59,288 bases of DNA from Halorubrum saccharovorum DSM 1137 (GTDB lineage Archaea > Halobacteriota > Halobacteria > Halobacteriales > Haloferacaceae). The notes beneath the pieces were generated by a model, which saw nothing but the letters and a program-made list of their open reading frames with translations, searched no databases and was not told where the DNA came from. The DNA is taken from assembly GCF_000337915.1 (NCBI RefSeq), contig NZ_AOJE01000058.1, forward strand, positions 1 through 59,288. Direction: 5' to 3'. Positions 50,017 through 59,095 of the stretch are shown here, in pieces. Position 1 is the first letter of the stretch, and every line of letters starts with the position of its first letter. Both the position numbers and the translations under genes were made by a program.

Positions 50017-51417
50017 TCACTCCCGCGCGGTCGGAACGATCCCGAACGGGTACTCGGCCAGCACCTCGTAGCCGCCCTCGGTGACGACGACGAGGTCCTC
50101 CAGCCTGACGCCGCCCACGTCGGGGTCGTACACGCCCGGCCCGACCGTCACGACGTGGCCCGACCGCAGTTCGCCCGCACCCGACAGCGACGGCGACTCG
50201 TGGCGGCTCACGCCCACGCCGTGGCCGGTGCCGTGGGTGAACCCGGCCTCGCCCTCCCCCGCGTTCGGGTCGAACCCGTACGCGCCAAGCTCGGCGGCGG
50301 CCTCTCCGTGGACGCTCGCGGCCGTCGCGCCCGATTCGACCTCGCCGAGCGCGACCTCGCGGGCCGACTCGACCGCGAGGTACGCCCGACGCTCCCAGCC
50401 GCCGTCGCCGTCGACGACGAACGTCCGGGTCAGGTCGCCGCGGTAGCCGTCGGGCCCGCGCGGCGAGACGTCGATCAGCACCGTCTCGCCCGGCCGGATC
50501 GGGTCGTCGCCGACGTAGCGGAGGTCGGCCGCTGCCGGCCCCACGCGGATCGCGGTGTCGCCGGCGTCCCGGACGCCGCGGGCGGCGAGCGTCGCGTTCA
50601 CGACCCGCCGCAGACGCTCGGTCGTCAGGGGTGCGCCCTCCCACCGGAGGGAGGGCTCGCGGGTCCCCGCCGAGTCGCCATCGGCGTCGGACTCGCTCCC
50701 GACGACCTCGCTCTCGGCCAACACGGTCTCGGCGCGTGCCATTCCCGCGACCGCCGCGCGCTGGACTCGTCGGAGCCGGTCGACCTCCGCGTCGGTCTTC
50801 CGGGATCGGGCGGTCGCGACCGCGTCGGTCGACGCCAGCGCGTTGCCGGCGCGTTCGAGGTACACCGCCGCGTCGTGCGGGATCGACGGGGAAACGAGAG
50901 CGGTGCGGTCGCTGTCGGCTCGGTCGCGCTCTTCGATGTCGAGCAGGTCTCGGACGACCGCCGCCGCGCGCTCGCCCGCGTGGTCGCCGACGCGCTCGGT
51001 CCGCACCTCGCGGGCGACGCCGTCGTGGAACCCGGCGTCGCCGTCGGCGCCTCCGCCGTCAGCGCCTTCGCTTCGGTCGCGCGCCCCGGCGACGAACTCT
51101 CGCTCGGCCTGCTCGCGGAACTGCGAGGGGGCACAGAGGACGGCGCGGCCCGCGATTCCGTCGTCTTCCGAACCCACGCTCTCCGGAACGACCACAAGCG
51201 CGTACGCCCGGTCCGGGCCGGCGAAGCGCGTGAGATACCGGAGGTCGTCGTCGAACCGGTCGCCGACCGCGACGAAGGCGTCGGCGTCCGCGGCCGCGAC
51301 CGCCTCGGCGATCGGTGTGAGGTTGGTGCGGACCGGGAGGCGGTCGCGCAGTTCCGCGGCGTCGCCGTCCCCGCCGCTTCCCGCACCGGCCTCCGCGGCG
51401 TCGCTCCCGTCGCTCAC
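50017..51417 (-). CDS. M24 family metallopeptidase (Xaa-Pro peptidase type)
   Basis: 466-residue M24 'pita-bread' protein. The N-terminal half is a creatinase-like domain, longer than usual because of several acidic loops (for instance around residues 110-135 and 240-255). Metal ligands appear in the C-terminal half: IDVSPRGPDGYRGDLTRTF with both aspartates, FTHGTGHGVG with the histidine, and the last glutamate in VRLEDLVVV. It therefore likely cleaves Xaa-Pro peptides in the cytoplasm. Upstream helicase stop overlaps its start by four bases, so the two are co-transcribed. Confidence 0.9.
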   Translation of the reverse strand: MSDGSDAAEAGAGSGGDGDAAELRDRLPVRTNLTPIAEAVAAADADAFVAVGDRFDDDLRYLTRFAGPDRAYALVVVPESVGSEDDGIAGRAVLCAPSQFREQAEREFVAGARDRSEGADGGGADGDAGFHDGVAREVRTERVGDHAGERAAAVVRDLLDIEERDRADSDRTALVSPSIPHDAAVYLERAGNALASTDAVATARSRKTDAEVDRLRRVQRAAVAGMARAETVLAESEVVGSESDADGDSAGTREPSLRWEGAPLTTERLRRVVNATLAARGVRDAGDTAIRVGPAAADLRYVGDDPIRPGETVLIDVSPRGPDGYRGDLTRTFVVDGDGGWERRAYLAVESAREVALGEVESGATAASVHGEAAAELGAYGFDPNAGEGEAGFTHGTGHGVGVSRHESPSLSGAGELRSGHVVTVGPGVYDPDVGGVRLEDLVVVTEGGYEVLAEYPFGIVPTARE

Positions 51418-53258
51418 GGCTCGGGTTCGGGGACGGCCAGCTCCGCCTGCACCTCCTCGACGAGATCCTGTGCGGGTTCGTCGCGGAGCTCGTTGAAGAG
51501 GAGAACGCTGATCGGGAGCGTCGGTGCCCCGCTGATGAGGCTCTCCATGATCACCAGTCGCTCGCGTGCGCGGGACATCCCGACGTAGAACACGCGGCGC
51601 TCGTTGTCGGTGAGGACCGGGACCGGGCTCGTGGTCTTCGTGAACTCCTCGATGCCGTCCACGTCGGTCGGGTCGTCGATGGAGGCCGCCATCTGCTCGA
51701 CAACCTTCTCGGTGAGGTCGGTCGCGACGAACACGTGGTCGGCCTCGCGGCCCTTCGCGGAGTGGATGGTGCCGACGCGGACGCGGGTCGGGTCCATCCC
51801 CTCGTAGTCGCCGTCGAAGTAGGCGCCCATCGACTTCCGCTGGAAGCTCGTCACCTTCCGGACCATGTCGTTCGCGCTGCTCGCGTCGGGCATGAACGGG
51901 ATGAACTCGTCGAGTTCGTCGTTCGTCACCTCGATCTGGGCGATGTCGTCGGCGTCGGCCGCCTCCTCGCGGTCGTCGAGGAAGTCGTAGAACTCGTCCC
52001 GCTCGTGGGTGCCGAACGCCGAGTCCTGCAGCATGTCGGCGAGCCGTCGGGCCTCAAGCCCGTTCACGGAGTCGCCCGTGTCGGCCTTCTCGATGGCGCT
52101 GACGTAGTCACGCACGCGGTCGGTCCACATCCGGCCGTCGGTCAGCATCGTGAACGGGATCCCGTGGTCGATGAACTCGTCGATGAAGTCGAACATCTGG
52201 TAGCGCGCCCGGAACAGACACATCACGCTGCCCTCGTCGTCCTCGACGGTGTACCGGACGTTCCGGACAAGTTCGAGCATCGACGGCGACTCGATCGCCT
52301 CGACGGTGCCGCCCTCCTTGCGCGGGTGGAGGTCCTTCTCCTGTCGCTTGTCGATGTGGCGGATCTCGGCGTTGACGACGTTGAGGATCTCGGAGGGGAG
52401 CCGGTAGGAGTTCGGGAGCACCACGTCCTCGTCGACGTCGGTGTCTAAGAGGAGGTCGGGGTCGGCGCCCTGCCACGCGTAGACGACCTGGTCGTCGTCG
52501 CCGGCGATGAGCACTTTCCGCATGTGGGGTTTCCACTCCTCGAAGACGTTGTACTGCAGCGTCGTGATGTCCTGGAACTCGTCGATGATCAGGTACTCGA
52601 CGTTCGGCACCAGCGAGCGCTGCGCGACGCGTTCGAGCATGTCTGCGAAGCCGACCAGGTCGTGGTCGCCCTTGTAGCCGCGCCACGCGCGGATCGTGTC
52701 GGGGATGTCGATCCGGTCGTCGTCGGAGGGCCACGTCGGGGTGTACTTGTTCCCCTGCTGCGCGTTGGGGTCCTCCTCGGGCGGGAGCCGGACCTCCTCG
52801 ACGTTCCACTGGAAGGGCACGTCGTACCAGTCGGCCACGTCGCGCTCGGTGCGCTGGAGCCACTGCGAGGTGGCGATGATCTTGTTGCCGATCGTCGTCG
52901 ACCGCGCGGTCCGCCGTCCGGCGCCGCCGTGCTGGTCCTCGAACTCGATGCCGTACTCCTCGCAGAACTCCTCTTTGTCGTCCTCGCCGACCACGTCGCC
53001 GCGCGACAGGTCGAGCAGCTCGTACGCCTTCGCGTGCATGGTACAGACGTTCCCCTGGAGGCTGCGCGGGGAGATGTCGAGCCGCTCGGCGAGCCGCTCG
53101 CGGATCTCGGCGGCGGCAGCACGCGTGTACGAGACGACGAGCACGTCGCGAACGTCGGCGTCCCCGTCGTCGAGGATCCCCTCGACGCGGTCCAGGAGCG
53201 CTGTGGTCTTCCCGCTGCCCGGACCGCCGAACAGTCGCGTCACCGTGGGATCGGTCAT
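51414..53258 (-). CDS. UvrD/Rep-family superfamily 1 DNA helicase
   Basis: 614-residue ATP-dependent 3'-5' helicase used in DNA repair. Motif I GGPGSGKTT near residue 12, motif Ia YTRAAAAEIRERL, motif II LIIDEFQDIT near 225, motif III AGDDDQVVYAWQGA near 255, motif IV region NSYRLPSEIL, motif V VGTIHSAKGREADHVF near 505 and motif VI YVGMSRARERLVI near 575 are all present. Motif II has DEFQD, the family form. Shorter than bacterial UvrD, lacking some accessory insertions. First of an operon with the M24 peptidase. Confidence 0.95.
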   Translation of the reverse strand: MTDPTVTRLFGGPGSGKTTALLDRVEGILDDGDADVRDVLVVSYTRAAAAEIRERLAERLDISPRSLQGNVCTMHAKAYELLDLSRGDVVGEDDKEEFCEEYGIEFEDQHGGAGRRTARSTTIGNKIIATSQWLQRTERDVADWYDVPFQWNVEEVRLPPEEDPNAQQGNKYTPTWPSDDDRIDIPDTIRAWRGYKGDHDLVGFADMLERVAQRSLVPNVEYLIIDEFQDITTLQYNVFEEWKPHMRKVLIAGDDDQVVYAWQGADPDLLLDTDVDEDVVLPNSYRLPSEILNVVNAEIRHIDKRQEKDLHPRKEGGTVEAIESPSMLELVRNVRYTVEDDEGSVMCLFRARYQMFDFIDEFIDHGIPFTMLTDGRMWTDRVRDYVSAIEKADTGDSVNGLEARRLADMLQDSAFGTHERDEFYDFLDDREEAADADDIAQIEVTNDELDEFIPFMPDASSANDMVRKVTSFQRKSMGAYFDGDYEGMDPTRVRVGTIHSAKGREADHVFVATDLTEKVVEQMAASIDDPTDVDGIEEFTKTTSPVPVLTDNERRVFYVGMSRARERLVIMESLISGAPTLPISVLLFNELRDEPAQDLVEEVQAELAVPEPEP

Positions 53259-53972: not shown

Positions 53973-54710
53973 TCAGTCGGCCGCCGTCGGGGCGGTTCCC
54001 GAACCGGGGCCGGTGCGGTCGCCCCCGCCCGTCGCGTCTGCCTCGCCCTCGTCGTCGAGCAGCGTCTCGGCGTTCGCGATCACGAAGCCCGCGAAGCCGA
54101 CCCGCAGGATGAAGTCGATGTACTCCAGGGTCACCGCCTGCGTGAACGCGTCGAAGACGCCGAACAGCTGGAGCATCGCCCACGTGATCAAGATCCCGAA
54201 GACGAACAACACGAGGTTCCGGGTCTTCCGGTAGAACAGCGCCCGCCGCGGGGACCGTCGCCGCGCGGCCGCCGCCACCGGGCCGAAGTAGAGCAGCGCG
54301 AGTAGCGCGTATCCGACGACGATGGCCGCGGTCGCCGCGAGTCCGACCGTTCCGTCGGCCACGTCGGCCACGTCGTAGGCGGTCCGCATGAGGAGGATCG
54401 TCGCGACGACGACCCCGATGTACCGGCGGCTCGCACCCGCGACAAACGCCGCGAACCCGAACAGGAGTGGGTAGGTCGCGTAGTCGCTGACCGTCTGTGG
54501 CAACACCAGTTCGCCCGTGCCCACCGGCACGGCGCCGACCCCCGCGCCGCGAGCGGCGACGAGCACCGAGGCGGCGGCGACCACCGCGACGAACGGGTAG
54601 CAGTACCGCCGCGCGGCGGGCCGCTTCAGCCGGACCGCCGCGAACAGCGCCACCGCCCAGCCGCCGTACAGGGTCGCGGAGACGAACCGCACCGTTGACG
54701 GCTCGATCAT
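53973..54710 (-). CDS. Rhodopsin homologue lacking the retinal lysine, partner of an HtrII-like transducer
   Basis: 245-residue seven-helix protein that aligns along its whole length with sensory rhodopsin II from memory of the N. pharaonis protein: RRYC...GVGAVPV matches RRYY...GVGWVPV, then [16 protein letters not shown], and [10 protein letters not shown] against YLDLVTKVGF. Numbering is the same through helix F (Pro71, Thr79, Pro81, Asn165). Changed sites: Lys205 (Schiff base) is Arg203, counterion Asp75 is Ser75, Arg72 is Gln72, Trp76 is Asp76, Trp171 is Phe171 and Tyr174 is Leu174. Tyr199, which binds the transducer, is kept as Tyr197, and Asp201 as Asp199. The gene follows the transducer gene with a four-base overlap, the order known for htrII-sopII. 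It cannot bind retinal covalently in the normal way; its stimulus is unknown. Confidence 0.85.
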
Positions 54711-56296
54711 CGGTCCACCTCCCCACCGTCGGCGGCGGGAACCGCGGCGCGGTCGCCCGTCGGCTCGCCGCTCGCGGTCTGGGTCGAGCGGTCGGTCCGC
54801 GTGTCGAACTCGTCGAGGCGGCGTTCGAGCGTCCGGGTCCGGTCCGACAGCGACGCGGCCGTCTCGCGGACGGTCTCCATCGTCGCCGCGGTCTCGTCGG
54901 CGGTCTCCGCGAGGGACCGCGCCCGGTCGGCCGCGGCCTCCGCGGTCCCGTGGACCTCGTCGACGGTCGCCGCGATCGCCTCGACGCCCGTCGCGCCCTC
55001 GTCGGTCGCCTGCGCGATGTCCGCCATCGCGGCGTCGACGTCCTCGACGGTCCCGGTGAGCTCCTCGATCGCGTCGCCGGCGTCGCGGGCGGCCTCCGTG
55101 GTCTCGTCGAGCTCCGCCATCGTCTCGTCCATCTCCGCGGCCACCGCCGCCACGTCGCCGGTCACCGCGTCGATCGTCTCGTCGATCTCCTCGGTGGACG
55201 CCCGCGTCTCCTCCGCGAGCGACTTCACCTCGTCGGCGACGACCTCGAAGCCGTCGCCGTCGCCCCCGGCGCGGGAGGCCTCGATCGAGGCGTTCAGCGC
55301 GAGGATGTTCGTCTGCTCGGCGATGTCGGCGATCATGTCGGTGGTCTCGCCGACCCCGTCCATCCGGTCGTCGAGCCCGTCGATCAGCTCCTGCAGCTCG
55401 CCGAGCAGGTCGGCGATGGCGAGCACGGAGTCGACCGCCTCGGCGGCGTGTCGCTCGCCGGCCTCGCCGAGCTCGGCCGCGGCCGCGGCGTCGCCCGCCA
55501 CGTCGTCGGTGGTGGAGGCGATCTCCTCGACCATCGCGGAGAAGTCGTCGGTCTCGTCGGACGCCTCCCGGAGCCGGGCCGTCTGGTCGTCGAGCGCGCC
55601 CGCCAGCTCCCGCATCTCCGTCGCGACCGTCTCGTTCATCTCCGCCACGTCGTCGGCGCGCTCGGCCATCCGCTCGCCCGTCGACTCCACGTCCTCGGCG
55701 AACGCGTGGAGGTCGTCGAGCGTCGCGGACAGGTCCGCGGCCATCTCGTTGTACGCGCCGGCGATCCGCGCGATCGCGTCCACGTCAGCGTCCTCGGGCA
55801 GCCGTCGGGTGAAGTCGCCGTCGGCCGCGTCCTCCATCGCCGAGCCGATCCCCTCGGCGTGGTCGAGGAGGTCGTCGGTGAGCGCCTCCGCCTCCTCGCG
55901 GGCCGCCTCCGCGTCGGCCTGCGCCCGTTCCGACTCCGCGACCGCGTCGCGCAGCGAGCGCCGCATCTCGTCGACGGCGCCGAACAGCCGCCCGATCTCG
56001 TCCGGTCGGTCGGAGTCGGCGCTCGCCTCGAAGTCGCCGTCGCGGACCGCCTCCGCGACCGCCGTGAGCCGCCGCAGGTCCACCCCGACGTTCCCGACGA
56101 GGACGATCCCCAAGAGCCCGAGATTGAGCGTGACCACGACCGCCGTGGCGCTCAGCGCCGCGAGCCCCGCCTCGCCCGTGCCGACGGCGGCGACGTGCGC
56201 GCCGAAGATCGCGACGAACGCCAGCGTGGTGCCCAACGCGAGCAACACGAGGACGCCCACTCGGCGCCCGTAGTGGTCCGTTATCGAGTCGAACAT
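54707..56296 (-). CDS. HtrII-like methyl-accepting transducer
   Basis: 529-residue sensory transducer. Two helices (about 12-37 and 45-68) are joined by a very short outside loop, as in the N. pharaonis HtrII (534 residues), so there is no ligand-binding domain of its own and the signal must come from a membrane partner. Asn58 in VTLNLGLL corresponds to HtrII Asn74, which hydrogen-bonds the receptor tyrosine. HAMP domains ([13 protein letters not shown] near 100 and [17 protein letters not shown] near 170) and a methyl-accepting coiled coil follow, with the CheA/CheW contact hairpin [20 protein letters not shown] at residues 322-341. It would control CheA and so motility. Coupled to the rhodopsin-like gene downstream by a four-base overlap. 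Confidence 0.93.
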
Positions 56297-56416: not shown

Positions 56417-56866
56417 ATGCCGACCGTCAGCGACACCTACATCGAGAACCGCCAGCGCGTCCAGCCGACCCACACGAACAACTACGAGTCGGCCCACGGG
56501 GGCAACGTCGTCAAGTGGATGGACGAAATCGGCGCGATGTCGGCGATGCGCGCCGCCGGCGAGACGTGCGTCACGGCCAAGATCAACGGGCTCGACTTCA
56601 AGCGACCGGTACCGCAGGGCGACACCTGTATCGTCGAGTCGTACGTGTACGCGGTCGGGCGAACGAGCCTCCGAACGCGGATCCGGGCGTTCCGCGAGTC
56701 TCCCCGGACCGGCGAGCGCGAGCTGACGACGGAGTCGTACTTCGTGTTCGTCGCCGTCGACGCCGACGGAAGTCCGACGGCGGTGCCGGAGCTGACGGTC
56801 GAGGGTGACCGCTGCCGAGAGCTGCGCGACGCCGCGCTCGCCGCGGAGCCGGAAGAAGACCGGTGA
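56417..56866 (+). CDS. Acyl-CoA thioesterase, hotdog fold (YciA/BACH type)
   Basis: 149-residue single-hotdog protein. It contains NNYESAHGGNVVKWMDEIGAMSAMRAA (about residues 22-48) with the Asn/Asp-bearing catalytic region of the acyl-CoA hydrolase family, then the strand VTAKINGLDFKRPVPQGD and VESYVYAVGRTSLRTRI. The C-terminal tail is acidic. It would hydrolyse acyl-CoA to free fatty acid and CoA; chain length is unknown. Stands alone, with the transducer divergent upstream. Confidence 0.9.
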   Translation: MPTVSDTYIENRQRVQPTHTNNYESAHGGNVVKWMDEIGAMSAMRAAGETCVTAKINGLDFKRPVPQGDTCIVESYVYAVGRTSLRTRIRAFRESPRTGERELTTESYFVFVAVDADGSPTAVPELTVEGDRCRELRDAALAAEPEEDR

Positions 56867-57328: not shown

Positions 57329-59095
57329 ATGACGACCGGAATCGACGTCGCCGTGGCCGCGATTCCGCTGCTTCTCGCCGGGGTTCTCCTCGTCGGGTTC
57401 CTGTGGCCGGCGACGCGCGCGATGCCCATCGCGTGGGTCGCAGCCATGGTGATCGGGTACGCGGCGTGGAACATGCCGGTGAACTGGCTGGCGGCGGCGT
57501 CGGCGAGAGGGTTCATGACCGCGATCGAGATCCTCTGGATCGTCTTCGGTGCGCTCGTGCTGTTGTACACCCTGATGGAGGCCGGTGCGTTCGACCGGAT
57601 AAATCAGGGATTCGCGACGGTCAGCGACGACCGACGCGTGCAGATCGTCCTGATCGCCTTCTTCATGGCGACGTTCATCGAGGGCGCCGCCGGGTTCGGG
57701 ACGCCCGCTGCGGTCGTCGCGCCGCTGCTCTTGGGGCTCGGCTTCCCGGCGCTCGCGGCGGTCGTCGCCGGGATCATCGGCCACATCATCGCCGTCACGT
57801 ACGGCGCGGTGGGGACGCCGATCGTGGTCGGGATACAGAATCCGATGGAGAGCGTCGAGTTTACCCGCACCGCTATCCAGGACGGCGGCATGACCGTCCA
57901 GGAGTTCTCCGTCAACGTGGCGGCGTGGGCGGCGACGTATCACGCGTTGGTGGGATTCGTGATGCCGCTGTTCGCGGTCGGCATGGTCGTCTACTTCTTC
58001 GGCGACCCGGACGACCGCTCGCTGGCGCCGGCCTGGGAGGTCGCGCCGCTCTGTCTGGCGTCGGGGATCGCCTTCGCGGTCCCGTACTGGATCTCGGCGT
58101 GGTTCCTCACGGCCGAGTTCCCGTCGCTCATCGGGTCGATGGTCGGCGGCGCGATCATCCTGAGCATCCTGCGCGCGGGCTACCTCCTGCCGGACGACGA
58201 GTGGGAGTTCCCGGAGCGGGAGAAGTGGGCAGACCACTGGGTCGGATCGATCGAGCCGGGGCAGTCGAACGGCTCGAACGGTGAGGGCCCCGAGAGCCGC
58301 GGCGGCGTCTCGCCCGAGGCGAAGGCGGCCGACCTCAGCGGCGGCGAGGACATGTCGCTGCTGAAGGCGTGGTCGCCGTACGTCCTGCTCGTGGTTCTGC
58401 TGGTCGTGACGCGCGCGGTCGGACCGATCTCGAACTTCATCAACCAGAGCATCTTCATCGTCAGTTGGAACGGGATCCTCGGAACCACTCTCGACGGCGC
58501 CGTCGCGTGGATGAACGTGCCGGGGTTCTGGCTGCTCGTGAGCGCCGTGCTCGCGATCCCGATCTTCAGCATGTCCGGCGAGGAGATCGGTGACGCGTGG
58601 AAGGAGGCCGGCCGAAAGATCGTCTCGCCGTTCATCGCGCTGGTGTTCGTCATCGCCATGGTGCAGGTGATGCTCCAGTCCGGCGCGCATCCCGGCGCGC
58701 CGGAAGTGGGGAGCATGATCGTCCTGCTCGCGCAGACGACCGCTGACATCCTCGGCGTCGCCTATCCGGCCTTCGCGTCGCTGATCGGCGCGCTGGGCGC
58801 GGCGATGGCCGGATCGAACACCGTCTCGAACATCACCTTCGGCGCGTTCCAGTTCGAGGCGGCGACGCAGCTCGGGCTTCCGCGAACGATCATCGTCGGC
58901 GCGCAGGCCGTCGGCGGCGCCATCGGGAACCTCGTCGCGATCCACAACCTCGTCGCCGCGCTGGCGACGGTCGGCCTCCTCGGACAGGAGGGGCGGGTGA
59001 TGCGGCTGAACCTGATCCCGCTGCTGTACTACGCGACGGGCGTCGGCCTGCTGTGTCTGCTGTTCAGTTACGTGTTGTTCCCCGGCGTGTTCTGA
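57329..59095 (+). CDS. lctP: L-lactate permease (LctP family)
   Basis: 588-residue proton-coupled L-lactate transporter with about fourteen membrane helices, the normal length. It contains family motifs such as FIEGAAGFGTPAAVVAPLL near residue 112, GAVGTPIVVGIQNP near 157, and GSNTVSNITFGAFQFEAA near 490 plus VGAQAVGGAIGNLVAIHN. A hydrophilic loop of about 45 residues (SNGSNGEGPESRGG region) splits the two halves. Control is suggested by an inverted repeat before the TATA box and a 5' leader with a Shine-Dalgarno sequence. Confidence 0.95.
   Translation: MTTGIDVAVAAIPLLLAGVLLVGFLWPATRAMPIAWVAAMVIGYAAWNMPVNWLAAASARGFMTAIEILWIVFGALVLLYTLMEAGAFDRINQGFATVSDDRRVQIVLIAFFMATFIEGAAGFGTPAAVVAPLLLGLGFPALAAVVAGIIGHIIAVTYGAVGTPIVVGIQNPMESVEFTRTAIQDGGMTVQEFSVNVAAWAATYHALVGFVMPLFAVGMVVYFFGDPDDRSLAPAWEVAPLCLASGIAFAVPYWISAWFLTAEFPSLIGSMVGGAIILSILRAGYLLPDDEWEFPEREKWADHWVGSIEPGQSNGSNGEGPESRGGVSPEAKAADLSGGEDMSLLKAWSPYVLLVVLLVVTRAVGPISNFINQSIFIVSWNGILGTTLDGAVAWMNVPGFWLLVSAVLAIPIFSMSGEEIGDAWKEAGRKIVSPFIALVFVIAMVQVMLQSGAHPGAPEVGSMIVLLAQTTADILGVAYPAFASLIGALGAAMAGSNTVSNITFGAFQFEAATQLGLPRTIIVGAQAVGGAIGNLVAIHNLVAALATVGLLGQEGRVMRLNLIPLLYYATGVGLLCLLFSYVLFPGVF

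Follow-up and report, generated by a model that had tools for sequence, protein, structure and literature searches.

An arginine-bearing opsin-related protein paired with a transducer in Halorubrum saccharovorum: a candidate receptor for a non-light cue

Organization of the locus

The window, which is the whole stretch of DNA that was analysed (59,288 nucleotides of contig NZ_AOJE01000058.1 from Halorubrum saccharovorum DSM 1137), contains a gene for an opsin-related protein (ORP) of 245 amino acids. Its reading frame is intact on the minus strand from an ATG at 54710 to a stop at 53973, and a transducer gene lies directly upstream, with its stop overlapping the ORP start by 4 nt (ATGA). The features of the locus, with the evidence behind each, are as follows.

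53973..54710, minus strand: group A opsin-related protein (ORP) of 245 aa (ORF and translation, phmmer, Foldseek/VIA, tree)
54102..54104, minus strand: codon CGG for Arg203, at the site of the Schiff-base lysine (NpSRII K205) (Arg in 24/24 Halorubrum)
54120..54122, minus strand: Tyr197, equivalent to NpSRII Y199, the transducer-docking Tyr, kept (alignments)
54483..54485, minus strand: Asp76 (NpSRII W76), characteristic of group A and located in what was the retinal pocket (the same residue in all 24 Halorubrum sequences)
54707..56296, minus strand: cognate transducer, 529 aa, with two TM helices, a short extracellular loop, HAMP and an MCP signalling domain (Pfam, phmmer)
55946..56077, minus strand: transducer HAMP domain, residues 74-117 (Pfam)
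54950..55447, minus strand: transducer MCP signalling domain, residues 284-449 (Pfam)
56123..56125, minus strand: transducer Asn58, equivalent to NpHtrII N74, partner of the docking Tyr (alignments)
56417..56866, plus strand: acyl-CoA thioesterase-like protein, a divergent neighbour (translation, synteny)

Assignment to the rhodopsin fold and to ORP group A

The ORP matched sensory rhodopsin II of N. pharaonis (NpSRII) with a phmmer value of 2.8e-10, indicating homology far above chance at the sequence level, and the two proteins share their numbering as far as helix F; the first-pass annotation had described the same likeness over all seven helices, and the alignment together with the Foldseek result bears it out. 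In the alignment, Arg72, Asp75, Trp76, Trp171, and Tyr174 of NpSRII correspond to Gln72, Ser75, Asp76, Phe171, and Leu174 of the ORP, in line with the four replacements that had been listed before (at 72, 75, 171, and 174), and Ala178 (for Trp178), Thr127, and Met108 were found in addition. Canonical SRII is recognized by Lys205 and the counterion Asp75, where the ORP carries Arg203 and Ser75. As Arg203 occupies the place of the lysine, retinal cannot be held by a Schiff base. The earlier statement that every chromophore site had been lost goes too far, since Asp201 of NpSRII is retained as D199.

The microbial rhodopsin profile PF01036 matched residues 20-213 of the ORP at 21.5 bits, below its cut-off of 24.6, and NCBIfam returned no family for the protein. 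Because PF01036 also misses nearly all close group A orthologues in the genus, membership was assessed by sequence and fold searches, so that the profile check suggested in the first-pass annotation fell short while these searches place the ORP in the rhodopsin family. Searches with an AlphaFold2 model of middling quality (built from five sequences; mean pLDDT 70, pTM 0.64, helix C weak) gave SRII/HtrII chains as the top Foldseek matches (E 8.5e-07, prob 1.00, TM about 0.7), and VIA-align gave Z about 18 to many rhodopsins, with an rmsd of 3.4-4.0 over about 220 residues. Sequence and predicted fold together indicate that the ORP is a seven-helix protein of the rhodopsin fold and a relative of SRII.

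Haloarchaeal opsins without the lysine have been described by Becker et al. 2016 (PMC4915679), who reported 48 of them as 'opsin-related proteins'. Their group A, mainly from Halorubrum, combines Arg at the lysine site with W76>D and Y174>L, retains Y199, and adjoins a HAMP/MCP transducer in 15/16 cases (PMC4915679). The class, the Arg subgroup, and the pairing had therefore been published already, and the novelty claimed in the first-pass annotation does not stand. The window gene shares with group A the replacements W76>D, Y174>L, W178>A, F127>T, V108>M, and Lys to Arg, as well as Y199 and the adjacent HAMP/MCP transducer; an acyl-CoA thioesterase also appears in the published neighbourhood legend ('ATH = acyl-CoA thioester hydrolase', S1 Fig, PMC4915679), and no difference of substance was found. 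By every sequence criterion the gene is thus a further member of group A, a placement made by genus and signature residues, as the sequences of Becker et al. are not in the tree by name. What is new relative to that study is that the Arg clade extends over five families, that the transducer retains Asn or His, and that the constraint on the pocket has been measured.

Distribution and phylogeny

The ORP was detected in 26/52 Halorubrum genomes, and 2 of the 26 copies (G126 and G136) were damaged; being missing from half of the genus and damaged in these two genomes, the gene is dispensable. In the tree, the lysine-less proteins were split from the K205 receptors (18 rows) with 100/100 support. 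The order-wide clade named for R205 comprised 60 rows from five families, 57 with Arg, two with Ser, and one with Tyr, and none of the orthologues in the group A clade had Lys at 205, which settles the orthologue check proposed earlier. The Ser- or Tyr-bearing proteins form one subclade (L069, L070, and L075) and are still paired with transducers.

A separate small Arg-bearing branch was located near group B, which bears Leu, suggesting from the tree that Arg at the lysine site arose more than once. Its members (L156 in G434, L159 in G432, and L160 in G191) lie outside the group A clade, keep Arg72 and the counterion Asp75, and have transducers with a large extracellular domain, unlike the window pair. 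Group B as a whole (Natrialba type) resembles the window ORP in lacking the Schiff-base Lys and in being often paired with a transducer, but differs in having Leu or another hydrophobic residue at 205, in mostly keeping Tyr51 and Arg72, and in forming its own branch. Beyond the haloarchaea, a rhodopsin fold without the lysine is shared by the bacterial Rh-noK and FArhodopsins (in the latter, by most freshwater members) and by fungal opsin-related proteins. The FArhodopsin cluster has no transducer gene and Rh-noK stands in tandem with proteorhodopsin (PMC10308929), and the loss of the lysine in fungi was independent (PMC4915679).

Integrity of the gene and of Arg203

The position of Arg203 was invariant in 24/24 Halorubrum sequences, in which it was encoded by CGG, CGC, or CGT. 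The 97% identical orthologue comes from Halorubrum salsamenti, which was sequenced independently and has the same Arg codon. A sequencing error at 54102-54104 is ruled out by this shared codon and by the synonymous Arg codons elsewhere. Pairwise dN/dS values among the Halorubrum ORPs ranged from 0.19 to 0.51 (0.235 for the window copy versus L038), indicating that the ORP is under purifying selection as judged from codon substitutions; this ratio and the intact frame rule out a pseudogene for the window copy. The kept Thr79, which had been taken as a sign of selection, does not serve as one, since Ala was found at this position in 19/24 orthologues.

Damaged copies were seen at three loci. In G126 (L062), the ORP is frameshifted and the neighbouring transducer is intact; in G136 (L071), a 107-aa remnant is accompanied by the thioesterase gene, with no transducer match in the stretch fetched; and in G110 (L057:3042-3350), an extra ORP fragment of 103 aa lies next to an intact copy.

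The transducer and its docking contact

Pfam detected HAMP (5.1e-14) and MCPsignal (5.2e-36) in the transducer, and phmmer matched it to NpHtrII at 1.6e-13 over TM1-TM2-HAMP (the first 120 residues). The NLGL segment, which holds N74 in NpHtrII, is present as well. With two TM helices, HAMP, MCP, and homology to NpHtrII, the protein conforms to the HtrII type, and it carries no extracellular domain, which leaves the opsin as the one evident input module of the pair. The transducer was upstream of the ORP in 23/23 intact Halorubrum loci examined in addition to the window, mostly with overlapping genes, and most members of the wider R205 clade show the pairing too.

The docking Tyr199 was found in every lysine-less row with a readable transducer and was invariant in group A. 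On the transducer side, the N74-equivalent was Asn or His in 65/65 transducers read of lysine-less opsins versus Gly or Ser in 17/17 same-family transducers of K205 receptors. As NpHtrII itself has Asn, the Tyr199-Asn74 pair is a known contact that was retained and not an invention; N74 is absent from the main text of Becker et al. (PMC4915679). In addition, K162, R164, N165, and Y197 of the ORP were invariant in 59 rows of the wider R205 clade. The window pair therefore has in common with canonical SRII-HtrII of N. pharaonis the fold, the operon layout, the two-TM HAMP/MCP transducer, the docking Tyr199, and Asn74, whereas the ORP differs from canonical SRII in lacking the retinal lysine, the Asp75 counterion, Arg72, and the aromatic cage and in belonging to a separate clade (100/100).

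Cellular context and published expression data

The same genome harbors a canonical SRII-HtrII pair (G000:C57, L089), a Brp/Blh-type gene (BCD family), genes with CheW domains, and archaellins. Given the canonical opsin and the Brp/Blh-type gene, retinal should be available to the cell. All 26 ORP-bearing Halorubrum genomes likewise had a canonical opsin, a BCD gene of the Brp/Blh type, and an archaellin, so lost retinal synthesis is ruled out as the cause of the lysine replacement. In gene content, this cell context fits a taxis receptor. Becker et al. reported that a group A gene was transcribed, that ORP protein was undetected by mass spectrometry in native hosts, and that a group A protein (Hrr. 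distributum) given retinal in excess lacked an absorption band at 480-580 nm, and they proposed non-light sensing for the ORPs (PMC4915679). In the open-access literature that was searched, no functional follow-up on haloarchaeal ORPs after 2016 was found.

The former retinal pocket

The positions that line retinal in NpSRII have acquired a new, invariant set of residues in the Halorubrum ORPs, including Q72, D76, Y80, R109, Y112, Y134, D199, and R203, and the aromatic cage of W76, W171, Y174, and W178 has become D, F, L, and A in the ORP of the window. Over a list of positions taken to line the pocket of NpSRII, entropy in group A was 0.21 at pocket-equivalent positions versus 0.60 at the other positions of helices C-G, and the canonical receptors gave 0.30 versus 0.78. 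By this measure, the ORP pocket is about as constrained as that of the canonical receptors; buried positions are generally conserved, so burial could explain part of this constraint, which by itself is no proof of ligand binding. Outside Halorubrum, position 109 is often Val and position 201 is often Gly, Ser, or Asn.

Proposed function and alternative explanations

The impossibility of a Schiff base, the purifying selection, and the pairing with a transducer make a non-retinal role the best reading, as the first-pass annotation had held and in agreement with the published hypothesis. We consider it likely that the group A ORP descends from a sensory rhodopsin, has given up retinal, and still functions as the receptor that, together with its transducer, responds to a non-light cue. 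The opsin would act as the input module, in which the cue would shift helices F and G; the shift would be passed through the Tyr197-Asn58 contact to TM2 and HAMP of the transducer, and the MCP tip would then change CheA activity and archaellum switching. The steps from the fold to the transducer contact are supported by the comparisons above, and ligand binding and behavioural output are inferred. The cue itself is the least certain step: among the candidates, binding of an ion or a small ligand within the rebuilt pocket (Gln72, Asp76, Tyr80, Arg109, Tyr112, Tyr134, Asp199, and Arg203) is favored, and the proposal is a tentative one. It is similarly conceivable, though somewhat doubtful, that the retinal pocket has turned into a genuine binding site, with Arg203 and Asp76 holding a small molecule of polar or charged character. 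The protein would then be a chemoreceptor built on a microbial opsin, and type 1 opsins would be a general sensory family for which light is one of several inputs.

The conservation pattern also bears on a constitutive partnership, in which an opsin that senses nothing would be a fixed subunit stabilising the transducer or setting its baseline, while the transducer would answer to conditions in the membrane or cytoplasm. Over the R205 clade at large, residues on the docking side show stronger conservation than those of the pocket, and in one subclade position 205 has drifted to Ser or Tyr, as such a partnership would allow; within Halorubrum, however, the constraint on the pocket equals that in true photoreceptors, a level that a passive subunit would have no reason to maintain, and this explanation is judged unlikely. 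A physical sensor, whose buried Arg and Asp would respond to pH or membrane potential instead of a ligand, draws on the invariant charged set D76, R109, D113, D199, and R203, situated in helices that have a protonatable centre in rhodopsins. The variability of this set outside Halorubrum makes such a sensor rather improbable, since a shared physical input should keep the sensor residues. Light sensing with a non-covalent or alternative chromophore is very improbable: apo-opsins can still function, though less efficiently, when given modified retinals, an alternate chromophore was left possible by Becker et al. (PMC4915679), and the host has its Brp/Blh-type gene, but the retinal cage is gone from the window ORP and the group A protein, despite growth with retinal in excess, gave no band at 480-580 nm. 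Finally, a decaying pseudogene or a sequencing error deserves almost no credence, because the occasional decay seen in G126, G136, and G110 stands against an intact window copy with low dN/dS and an Arg that synonymous codons preserve in all 24 genomes.

If the preferred reading of the ORP as a receptor for a non-light cue is true, type 1 opsins would be a broader sensory family, in the way that animal opsins form a single branch within the GPCRs. Because a canonical SRII-HtrII paralogue occurs in the same genome as the window pair, the two can be compared cleanly, and the residues of interest for mutation are those of the retained Tyr/Asn contact and of the pocket with its invariant polar set.

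Other neighbouring genes

A lactate permease, a UvrD-like helicase, and a Xaa-Pro peptidase are not beside most orthologues of the ORP and give no clue to its input. The thioesterase-like gene lies beyond the transducer in most Halorubrum ORP loci and is probably not part of the ORP-transducer system. At 57329-59095 on the plus strand, a long membrane protein looks like an L-lactate permease; a similar gene is near the ORP in L038, L049, L050, and L058 and absent near most others. On the minus strand, a UvrD/Rep-like helicase ORF (51414-53258) was found in three Halorubrum loci (L038, L045, and L052) at about 96% identity, far above the conservation of the ORP.
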